Below, one piece after another: positions 2,285-5,041 of a stretch of 64,000 nt of DNA. Numbering within the stretch: position 1 is the stretch's first letter; each line of letters starts with the position of its first letter. Made by a program: the position numbers and the translations under genes. The stretch lies in the NCBI RefSeq assembly GCF_001021555.1, contig NZ_LDCP01000001.1:496001-560000 (forward strand). The letters are read 5' to 3'. This DNA is from Aurantiacibacter marinus (GTDB taxonomy: Bacteria > Pseudomonadota > Alphaproteobacteria > Sphingomonadales > Sphingomonadaceae). The notes below the pieces were generated by a model, which searched no databases, had not been told where the DNA came from, and was given only the letters and a program-made list of their open reading frames with translations.

Positions 2285-3343
2285 ATGCAAAAAAGCATCC
2301 ATCTTTTTGAGCGCTTGCCGCGGATTGACGCCAGCCCTGCCGGTGCAGATTCTTTGGCGGCGGATGATGGAGTTGTGTTCCCGGTGCGAAGCAAGCCGCT
2401 TGTTGGACTGATCCGCAATCGCCGAAGCTATCACAATGGTGACGAGCGCAACCAGCGCGGTGCCGTTCCGGCCAGCGCGACCGAGGATGTGATCGTCAGG
2501 TCTCCGGGACTTCGCAGCGAGCTGACAGAGATCCTGGCGGAATTCGCCGCACTCAGGGTCGATTGCGTTGCCATCGATGGCGGTGATGGAACCGTGCGCG
2601 ATGTCTTGTCCTGCGGGGCAGCGATTTTCGGCGAAAGCTGGCCGACCGTCATTATTCTTCCCCATGGCAAGACCAATGCCCTTGCACTTGATCTGGGTAT
2701 TCCCACCGACTGGACGCTGGAAGAGGCGTTGGCGGCAATTCACAACGGCAATATCAAACGTCGCCAGCCGCTTGTCATGACGCAGTGGGACAATGCAGAA
2801 GCCCAGGTGCGCGGCTTCATCATGGGGGCGGGCGTTTTCAATCATTGTATTGCGCTGGGTCAGCGGTCGCACGATCTTGGCGCGTTCAACGCTGCAGTGG
2901 TTGGCGTGACAACGGGCTGGAGCGTGCTTCAGGCAATTTTTGGCGGCAAGGGCAATGTGTGGCGCCGGGGCACACGGATGCGCGTGCGCAGCGCAGATGG
3001 TTCTGAAGTGGAACACCTTGGCGGTTTGCCCGCGAATGAGCGTTATTTGCTGTTCGCATCGACTCTCGAAAATTTCCCCGCGGGGCTTAATCCGTTTCGC
3101 GGGATCAGCAATCCATTGCGCGTAGCAATGCTTGATAACCCAGGGCGCGGACTGTTGTTGAGAATTGCCGGCCTGATGCGCGGTACGGCTAGCGCAGCCA
3201 CAAAGCGGCGCGGCGCGCACGCCTTTGGAAGCGAAGGGCTGGAGCTCGATTTGTCCGAGAGTTTCATCCTTGATGGTGAAGCTTTCCCGGCAGGCCAATA
3301 CCGGCTGAGCGTCGGTGCCAAGCTGCGCTTCGTCGTACCGTGA
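2285..3343 (+). CDS. Diacylglycerol-kinase-family lipid kinase
   Basis: The protein (352 residues from the ATG at 2285; a TTG at 2279 in the same frame is an alternative) has the diacylglycerol kinase catalytic fold. The nucleotide-binding signature GGDGT is at residues 99-103, preceded by VDCVAIDGG and followed by a glycine/asparagine turn, HGKTNALALDLG, that matches the second conserved block of the family. The C-terminal half is the usual beta-sandwich domain. Such enzymes phosphorylate a membrane lipid such as diacylglycerol or sphingolipid-related alcohols with ATP on the cytoplasmic face. The stop codon overlaps the GTG start of the next gene, so the two are probably translated together, and that neighbour looks like a nucleotidyltransferase. 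The lipid substrate is unknown. Confidence 0.85.
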   Translation: MQKSIHLFERLPRIDASPAGADSLAADDGVVFPVRSKPLVGLIRNRRSYHNGDERNQRGAVPASATEDVIVRSPGLRSELTEILAEFAALRVDCVAIDGGDGTVRDVLSCGAAIFGESWPTVIILPHGKTNALALDLGIPTDWTLEEALAAIHNGNIKRRQPLVMTQWDNAEAQVRGFIMGAGVFNHCIALGQRSHDLGAFNAAVVGVTTGWSVLQAIFGGKGNVWRRGTRMRVRSADGSEVEHLGGLPANERYLLFASTLENFPAGLNPFRGISNPLRVAMLDNPGRGLLLRIAGLMRGTASAATKRRGAHAFGSEGLELDLSESFILDGEAFPAGQYRLSVGAKLRFVVP

Positions 3344-4251
3344 ACCTGACGGCCCGCGTCGAAACGGCGCTGGACCGCAAGGTTGATCCCGCCATTGCCG
3401 CTTTCGCCGCGCGTCTCGGGAAAGAGGCGCAGGCCATTGCCGTGCTGTTCTATGGCTCCAATCTGCGTACCGGATCGCTGGAAGGCGTACTCGACTTTTA
3501 TGTTCTGACCGACGGTCCGCCCGAGCGCGGGATTTGGCCGCGCGTATCCTACCGCGAGTGGGAGCACGAAGGGGAAACGCTGCGGGCCAAGATCGCAACC
3601 ATGACGCTGGCCAAATTCGCCTACGCTGCCAGGGGCGCTTCGCGTGACAGCACCATCTGGGCGCGATTTGTGCAGCCGAGCGCGCTGGTGTGGTGCTGTG
3701 AAGGCGGTGATGAACGCTCCGGATTACCATACAGGACCGCGATCGTGGACGTGATCGAAGACGCGGTACGCATCGCATCCGAACTGGCGGTCGCGCTGGG
3801 GCCGCAAAGCGGGCGCGAGAACGACTTTTGGAGGGCACTTTTTCGGCAGACCTACAAAGCCGAACTCCGCTTTGAAAAGCCCGGGCGCGAGAATTCCATT
3901 CTGGAACTCAACGCTGCGCATTTCGCCGGATTGCTACCTGCTGCGCTGGAATCGGCCGGAATTCCATATTCCGGCACCGGCGATCTGCTGGTGCCTGTCA
4001 TGCCCGCTGCTCGGCGCCGGCAGGTTTTTCGATCATGGCGTCGCTCCCGCCGGTGGGGCAAGCCGCTCAATATCGCTCGCCTGCTGCGCGCGACACGCAC
4101 CTTCGACGGCGCCGGCCGCTATGCTGCGTGGAAGGTGGAGCGTCATACAGGGGTGAAGGTGGAAGTTACACCATGGCGCGAAAAACACCCGGTGCTGGCG
4201 GCGCCGGGTGTTCTGTGGAAGGTGTGGCGCGCCAAAAGACGCGCCGATTAG
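3340..4251 (+). CDS. Nucleotidyltransferase-fold protein, possibly Tam41-like phosphatidate cytidylyltransferase
   Basis: This 303-residue soluble protein begins with GTG in a GTGA overlap with the lipid kinase stop. Near the N terminus it has LFYGSNLRTG (residues 37-46) followed by GVLDFYVLTDG, the Gly-Ser then Asp-x-x arrangement of polymerase-beta-type nucleotidyltransferases. The same layout (YGSG, then a spaced hydrophobic-Asp-Phe) is found in Tam41, the peripheral CTP:phosphatidate cytidylyltransferase of mitochondria. The remainder is mixed alpha/beta with a basic C terminus (VFRSWRRSRRWGK) suited to membrane contact. Coupling to a kinase that may produce phosphatidate fits a lipid-nucleotide role, but this rests on motif resemblance and context. 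A generic nucleotidyltransferase of other function cannot be excluded. Confidence 0.55.
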   Translation: MNLTARVETALDRKVDPAIAAFAARLGKEAQAIAVLFYGSNLRTGSLEGVLDFYVLTDGPPERGIWPRVSYREWEHEGETLRAKIATMTLAKFAYAARGASRDSTIWARFVQPSALVWCCEGGDERSGLPYRTAIVDVIEDAVRIASELAVALGPQSGRENDFWRALFRQTYKAELRFEKPGRENSILELNAAHFAGLLPAALESAGIPYSGTGDLLVPVMPAARRRQVFRSWRRSRRWGKPLNIARLLRATRTFDGAGRYAAWKVERHTGVKVEVTPWREKHPVLAAPGVLWKVWRAKRRAD

Positions 4252-4255
4252 GGAT

Positions 4256-4759
4256 TTACATATAGCGTATGCGGATCGTCATCGGCTTGACCTCCCGGCC
4301 GATTGAAAAGCGCGTGCGATCAATACTTGGGCGGCCGAGGTTGAAGATATTGATGCTGGGATTGTTGGACATGCCGCCGCCATCGGTTCTGATATCGGTG
4401 CTGCCATTGCCGTTGACGTCATGCCGGATCGCTATCGCGTAATCCCCGGTCGAAGGCACAGGCATGCAAATCTGCATGCTGCCAGCCCGCGCGGGCACTT
4501 CGATACGGTTCAGCCAGCGGCCGGATTCAAGCCAGTCGGCTCTCGTGCCGCGATACAATTGCACGCGCAATGTGCCGCTGGATGCTTCGATGTCGGTCAC
4601 GTTGATCCAGACGGCAGGCCCCTCGCCCCGACACGGCGTGACCGAATGCCGCAGTTCCTGGCGATATTGCTGGGCGCTGGCCGGCACGGCGATGCCGGTC
4701 GCGGCCACTGCACCAAGCAGCAGGGCGCCGGAAATGCGGAAATTGCGTGTGATCGTCAT
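4256..4759 (-). CDS. Secreted DUF2141-family protein
   Basis: The frame is open further upstream, but the ATG at 4759 is preferred because it begins a clean signal peptide (basic MTITRNFR, hydrophobic core, cleavage near VPASA/QQ), giving a 167-residue precursor. The mature part has a beta-rich pattern, including GTLRVQLYRG and DYAIAIRHDVNGNGSTD, the latter close to the Asp/Asn-rich turn typical of DUF2141 proteins. The family is exported and its biochemical role is not known. The gene converges on the lipid kinase/nucleotidyltransferase pair, only a few bases after its stop. A possible divergent promoter region of about 280 bases separates it from rpe. Confidence 0.8.
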   Translation of the reverse strand: MTITRNFRISGALLLGAVAATGIAVPASAQQYRQELRHSVTPCRGEGPAVWINVTDIEASSGTLRVQLYRGTRADWLESGRWLNRIEVPARAGSMQICMPVPSTGDYAIAIRHDVNGNGSTDIRTDGGGMSNNPSINIFNLGRPSIDRTRFSIGREVKPMTIRIRYM

Positions 4760-5041
4760 GTCTTGCGTAACCCTGTTCTCGTTTACCGGACCTCGGCTTG
4801 CAGCACCGGAATTTTTCCACTCCAGCGCAAGAATGCCGCACATGATGCACAAGTCGCGCGGTCATGAAGCGGCATTACAACCCGATCCGTAATTGCGTGC
4901 TGTTTGCGCCATTTCCACTGAACACTGGCTGAAGACGGCTGTCAGCTTCGTAAAACTATGAGTTTTCCCCCACCATTGTCTTAAATCTGGCCATCCCGTC
5001 CTTGAGAGGTGATTCGCGCATCTTTATCGCAGGGGATGCAT

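Follow-up and report, generated by a model that had tools for sequence, protein, structure and literature searches.

A lipid kinase and a Tam41-fold nucleotidyltransferase encoded together in Aurantiacibacter marinus are predicted to activate ceramide with CTP

What is made by a lipid kinase whose gene overlaps that of a nucleotidyltransferase without a family name? The question is raised by two genes in a 64,000-nucleotide stretch of the Aurantiacibacter marinus genome (contig NZ_LDCP01000001.1, positions 496,001 to 560,000; hereafter the window). The initial annotation proposed a module separate from CdsA, which would make phosphatidate and turn it into CDP-diacylglycerol. The observation itself was confirmed, and its interpretation was partly supported. 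CdsA is indeed encoded elsewhere in the genome and the pairing is conserved, but the substrate is probably wrong, since the nucleotidyltransferase family tracks serine palmitoyltransferase (SPT) in both gene order and genome content. We suggest that the pair consists of a ceramide kinase and a CTP:ceramide-1-phosphate cytidylyltransferase, forming a phosphosphingolipid module of the CpgB-CpgC type (probability about 0.65). More broadly, we assign the pair to sphingolipid metabolism with high confidence.

The upstream gene (2285..3343, plus strand, ATG start) encodes a 352 aa lipid kinase, predicted to be a ceramide kinase of the CpgB type. In a Pfam scan it matched DAGK_cat (PF00781) with an E-value of 6.7e-12 and 45.5 bits (cut-off 23.6). 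The bacterial ceramide kinase CpgB is reported to have GGDG and to lack CxxxCxxC (PMC10331486). The window kinase had the nucleotide-binding GGDG motif at residues 99-102 (2579..2590, plus strand) and no CxxxCxxC. Among 148 aligned partner kinases, one of them from the window, 145 had GGDGT, and in the remaining three no such motif was found. The TGA stop of the kinase gene and the GTG start of the next gene share the letters GTGA (3340..3343, plus strand), as first described. The second gene (3340..4251, plus strand) encodes a protein of 303 aa, predicted to be a CTP:ceramide-1-phosphate cytidylyltransferase of the CpgC type. The initial remark that it had no obvious family name was borne out, as neither Pfam nor NCBIfam gave a match at E ≤ 1, and the Pfam model CTP_transf_1 (CdsA, PF01148) was thus unmatched too. 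A chance reading frame is excluded by the 4104 homologues found at E ≤ 1e-3 out of 8000 scored candidates. The homologue names shown were mostly “hypothetical protein”, with a few in UniRef called “Nucleotidyltransferase” or “Phosphatidate cytidylyltransferase”. A Tam41-like nucleotidyltransferase topology, set beforehand as a test, was present. The nucleotidyltransferase core and the helical C-terminal domain were arranged as in the structures 6ig4, 6ig2 and 7ecd, the nearest being 7ecd, a bacterial Tam41 CTP-Mg complex.

The pairing was assessed in 80 named loci (the best 80 of 83 confirmed in a profile search of genome contigs with alignment A4), 20 order loci (picked for diversity out of 208 positive genomes), 58 short loci (30 from the order and 28 from the class, including the window's own) and 20 longer loci (18 from class hits and two from phylum hits, overlapping with the short loci). 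The kinase gene was directly upstream of the nucleotidyltransferase gene in 79 of the 80 named loci, and the other one, L198, starts at a contig end. Adjacency was also found in 20/20 order loci, 56/58 short loci and 19/20 longer loci. The trees of the two proteins were concordant, with a distance correlation of 0.90 (75 of 148 loci) that none of 500 permutations reached. The nucleotidyltransferase was found in at least 208 of the 296 genomes searched in the order (66 of 79 genera), at least 34 of 289 genomes of the class (24 of 223 genera) and, using the wider alignment A3, at least 14 of 299 genomes of the phylum. These are lower bounds, with at most eight candidates scored per genome (at most seven in the phylum search), and misses, for example in G061 and G062, may be artefacts. 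A paralogue with a role of its own, beside a separate sphingolipid-linked copy, was considered and rejected, because genomes in the order search gave a single match, or two of weaker score that are apparently one gene hit in pieces.

The neighbours of the pair were clustered without prior labels, and the representatives were named afterwards. They included SPT (607 bits with NF047599, cut-off 500) and a fatty acyl-AMP ligase (802 bits with NF006624, cut-off 600). Further neighbours were an epimerase-type reductase, an acyl carrier protein, two LptF/LptG permeases, a fatty acid hydroxylase, a weakly matched GNAT protein, a CDP-alcohol phosphotransferase, a MobA-like NTP transferase, a phosphoesterase and a DUF2141 protein. 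This set agrees with the Caulobacter genes for ceramide and ceramide phosphoglycerate described in PMC11324152. We use CpgA-like for the PF01066 cluster and CpgD-like for the PF12804 cluster; both CC_1152 and CC_1153 encode nucleotidyltransferases, and the latter cluster could correspond to either. The names AasR, CerR and CerS were assigned from domains and gene positions; for CerS the domain evidence is a weak GNAT match (E 2.9e-4). SPT lay within 10 kb in 36/80 named, 14/20 order and 17/20 longer loci, many loci ending before 10 kb. At least one sphingolipid gene lay within the same distance in 57/80, 16/20 and 19/20 loci, respectively.

Genome content pointed the same way. The nucleotidyltransferase and SPT searches each covered 289 class genomes, and as the listed handles agree they were taken as the same draw. 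SPT was detected in 40 genomes at E ≤ 1e-120 and in 39 over the curated cut-off; the latter count was preferred, since the E-value threshold alone also admits E. coli in the control set. All 34 genomes with the nucleotidyltransferase carried SPT over the cut-off, compared with 5 of the 255 others. Of the named loci, 44 showed no SPT in the stretch available; 24 of their genomes were tested, and 22 carried SPT over the cut-off elsewhere. In A. marinus, SPT was located at C1:281592-282773 (582 bits with NF047599; 777.5 bits with NF047603, cut-off 670), and on this evidence the host encodes sphingolipid synthesis. The association with SPT argues for ceramide-1-phosphate, rather than phosphatidate, as the acceptor.

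What the analysis shows is the family of the kinase, the Tam41 fold, the conservation of active-site residues, the strictness of the pairing and the link to SPT in gene order and genome content. Ceramide as the substrate of the kinase, CTP as the nucleotide, CDP-ceramide as the product and the type of the next enzyme are inferred, the two steps of the pair from family and context. The kinase would use ATP to convert ceramide to ceramide-1-phosphate. The Tam41-fold enzyme, soluble or peripheral, would then move CMP from CTP onto ceramide-1-phosphate, yielding CDP-ceramide and pyrophosphate, a step modelled on the action of Tam41 on phosphatidate. A candidate CDP-alcohol phosphotransferase would finally join CDP-ceramide to a small alcohol, giving a phosphosphingolipid. 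The pair would thereby supply the unexplained activation step of bacterial phosphosphingolipid synthesis, and ceramide would be activated by CTP in bacteria, as phosphatidate is in cells. The chances are about even that CDP-ceramide is a real bacterial metabolic intermediate made by a Tam41-fold CTP:ceramide-1-phosphate cytidylyltransferase. In the literature searched, with subscription papers mostly outside it, no mention was found of CDP-ceramide, of a ceramide-1-phosphate cytidylyltransferase or, judging by the titles listed, of a link between Tam41 and bacterial sphingolipids. As ceramide diphosphoglycerate is reported to help Caulobacter survive without lipopolysaccharide (PMC12275187), the enzyme may bear on outer-membrane building.

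Several observations weigh against this reading. The Fisher probability for the co-occurrence, 2.7e-39, ignores relatedness. Six genomes (G061, G062, G390, G403, G568 and G602) had SPT at E ≤ 1e-120, five of them over the cut-off, and the nucleotidyltransferase was not found in them; their SPT neighbourhoods (8-19 kb) contained neither it nor the partner kinase. Two of the 24 genomes tested for a distant SPT had none over the cut-off, one showing a weaker match (409 bits) and the other none. The adjacent kinase was missing at L079 and L118 (one genome), at L081 and at L219, the last being outside the counted sets. In A. marinus the SPT gene is about 215 kb from the pair, so that the nucleotidyltransferase gene is not beside spt as cpgC is, although this fits the scattered sphingolipid genes reported for Sphingomonadales (PMC11324152). 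Within the window, the cluster profiles matched nothing beyond the kinase, the nucleotidyltransferase and the DUF2141 protein, aside from a weak hit to a generic epimerase. A CpgA-type phosphotransferase was not recognised in the genome, the CpgA profile itself having been run on a few stretches only. DgkA (PF01219) was not found either, which leaves diacylglycerol as another possible substrate of the kinase. Orthology with CpgC is based on gene order and not on sequence comparison with CC_1161. Finally, the window protein did not match PF09139, the Pfam model for Tam41.

The last point extends to the wider family. PF09139 was unmatched in 19 close homologues of the window protein and in 8 of 10 further ones, the other two passing the cut-off of 24 (P0210 with 32.8 bits, P0236 with 26.7 bits). 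No protein exceeded the cut-off in searches of 61 relatives, with weak matches in four genomes, or of 299 phylum genomes, with weak matches in two. The Pfam model thus misses this branch, and with most scanned homologues unmatched we filed the window protein as a Tam41-fold relative and not as a PF09139 member. Likewise, no Tam41 match came from sequence-only searches against solved structures, whether the query was the window protein, alignment A1 or alignment A2. With P0210 as the query, the single match was a ribosome entry, taken as chance.

As for the enzyme following the pair in A. marinus, two proteins matched PF01066, and these passed the cut-offs of PgsA (116 vs 109.1 bits) and PssA (108.1 vs 107 bits). 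With only these two recognised, CDP-ceramide would need to be accepted by PgsA, by PssA or by an enzyme that escaped recognition. Where only PgsA and PssA are recognised, it is possible that these ordinary enzymes of phospholipid synthesis draw on CDP-ceramide and produce ceramide analogues of phosphatidylglycerol or of phosphatidylserine/ethanolamine.

The pair might instead serve phosphosphingolipid synthesis with another acceptor or nucleotide, for example acting on phospho-ceramide-phosphoglycerate, or on ceramide-1-phosphate with GTP or ATP. The sphingolipid context would agree with this, and PMC11324152 names only NDP-activated ceramide as a suggestion, leaving the roles of several nucleotidyltransferases open. 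However, the nearest structure, 7ecd, holds CTP-Mg, and the gene upstream usually encodes a lipid kinase, which makes a lipid monophosphate the natural acceptor. We consider this variant unlikely.

Also improbable is the route initially proposed, in which the kinase would make phosphatidate from diacylglycerol and the nucleotidyltransferase would convert it to CDP-diacylglycerol, giving CdsA a soluble bypass or a boost. The fold matches a CDP-diacylglycerol synthase, bacterial Tam41 makes CDP-diacylglycerol according to a review (PMC11646218), yeast Tam41 eases phosphatidate accumulation in CdsA-depleted E. coli (PMC6362211), and the lack of a recognised DgkA would also fit. In E. coli, yeast Tam41 is reported to bring back phospholipids but neither MPIase nor growth (PMC6362211). 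However, the genome has its own CdsA, and relatives of the pair are often located inside sphingolipid clusters. CDP-diacylglycerol is needed by bacteria in general, and the confinement of the family to SPT genomes in the class sample therefore counts against this route.

The active site was inspected at 42 positions, preselected as conserved in earlier alignments, in 151 sequences including the window's. Fourteen positions were invariant. Y38, G39, S40, D52, K84, R109, Q112, P113, E175, R177 and E179 were identical in 151/151 sequences, and Y261, K265 and H269 were kept in all 150 sequences with a letter there. On the plus strand, the nucleotide-binding GS loop Y38-G39-S40 lies at 3451..3459, D52 at 3493..3495, the basic residue K84 at 3589..3591 and the motif E175-x-R177-x-E179 at 3862..3876. 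The G-S...D layout noted initially is thus a feature of the whole alignment. D52 is the sole acid of the usual catalytic D-x-D, whose second position is Y54 (148/151). With a single catalytic acid where two to three are usual, the protein might have retained the fold while serving as a lipid carrier or kinase regulator without catalysis. This is very improbable, since Tam41 retains only one of the three and is yet active (PMC11646218), and since 14 of the 42 positions inspected are invariant.

In a midpoint-rooted tree of the 151 nucleotidyltransferases, the window protein fell in a clade of 39 (support 1.0). The CpgD-like gene was beside the pair in 11/39 of its members and SPT was within 3 kb in 0/39, a view limited by short loci. 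The groups next outside this clade were largely SPT-linked. In the close relatives L015, L025 and L026, the kinase and nucleotidyltransferase genes were followed by the CpgD-like gene, and a partial CpgA-like gene and DUF2141 lay in the vicinity. In A. marinus the CpgD-like gene is on another contig (C2; 48% identity). There it follows a PF01943 polysaccharide flippase-like gene (L225:4278-9451), with a glycosyltransferase, an unnamed 455-aa frame and a HAD phosphatase nearby, and this is perhaps a locus for a phosphoglycerate-containing surface polymer.

The DUF2141 gene (4256..4759, minus strand) is convergent with the pair and is a conserved neighbour. Its product has a signal peptide by eye, and the family call (PF09912, E 7.5e-20) was scored on the longer frame 4259-4852. 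It was found near the pair in 18/20 chosen order loci and 14/80 named loci, as well as on a Roseomonas mucosa plasmid (L228). On a Qipengyuania citrea plasmid the order is kinase, hypothetical protein, DUF2141, rpe, heparinase and purH, and the open frames in the window correspond to this run in order and size.

Other arrangements were observed. At L118:7864-10009 and L219:9183-13456 the nucleotidyltransferase gene adjoins SPT without an adjacent kinase, and at L118 a CDP-alcohol phosphotransferase gene is directly upstream in the kinase's stead. The conjugative IncP plasmid pDCB2 of Diaphorobacter sp. JS3051 carries much of an apparent phosphosphingolipid gene set (L227:3165-15963). Here the lipid kinase gene does not adjoin the nucleotidyltransferase gene but follows it about 2 kb downstream, and no aminotransferase was among the genes listed for this stretch. 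L198, from a contig labelled Gemmatimonadetes, contains the nucleotidyltransferase (L198:21-1001) and a partial CDP-alcohol phosphotransferase nearby, possibly reflecting spread beyond Proteobacteria or a binning error. L208, L209, L210 and L212 have SPT-centred ceramide genes, with neither the kinase nor the nucleotidyltransferase near SPT. These genomes perhaps make glycosphingolipids only.

Among known systems, CdsA (PF01148) would share analogous CTP:lipid-phosphate chemistry with the nucleotidyltransferase, but it is an integral-membrane protein of an unrelated family. Tam41, homologues of which have already been reported from Firmicutes and Proteobacteria (PMC11646218), shares the fold and the single catalytic acid. 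Identity to Tam41 / TAMM41 was just 10-14% in structural alignments, and unlike these the window protein lacks a PF09139 match, is encoded in an operon with a lipid kinase and belongs to a family whose class genomes all carry SPT. A further likeness is to genes of Caulobacter crescentus, where cpgB is reported to encode a ceramide kinase and cpgC to be required, through an “unidentified mechanism”, for ceramide phosphoglycerate (PMC13228409, a preprint of May 2026). The window kinase resembles CpgB (CC_1160 / CCNA_01218) in its DAGK_cat domain, its GGDG motif, its lack of CxxxCxxC and its adjoining cpgC-type gene, a comparison by features and not by sequence. The nucleotidyltransferase gene resembles cpgC (CC_1161 / CCNA_01219), whose product is reported to have an InterPro domain suggestive of CDP-diacylglycerol synthase. 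It differs in not being beside spt and in lying on a diverged branch, but like cpgC it adjoins a CpgB-type lipid kinase gene, and in relatives such as Dongia it occupies the place of cpgC, flanked by spt and the predicted ceramide kinase gene, which in turn holds the place of cpgB. In two Dongia loci (L129 and L130) and a Proteobacteria metagenome-assembled genome (L127), SPT, the nucleotidyltransferase, the kinase, the CDP-alcohol phosphotransferase, the phosphoesterase and the LptF/LptG pair follow the published order of CC_1162, CC_1161, CC_1160, CC_1159, CC_1158 and CC_1156/CC_1155 (PMC11324152).
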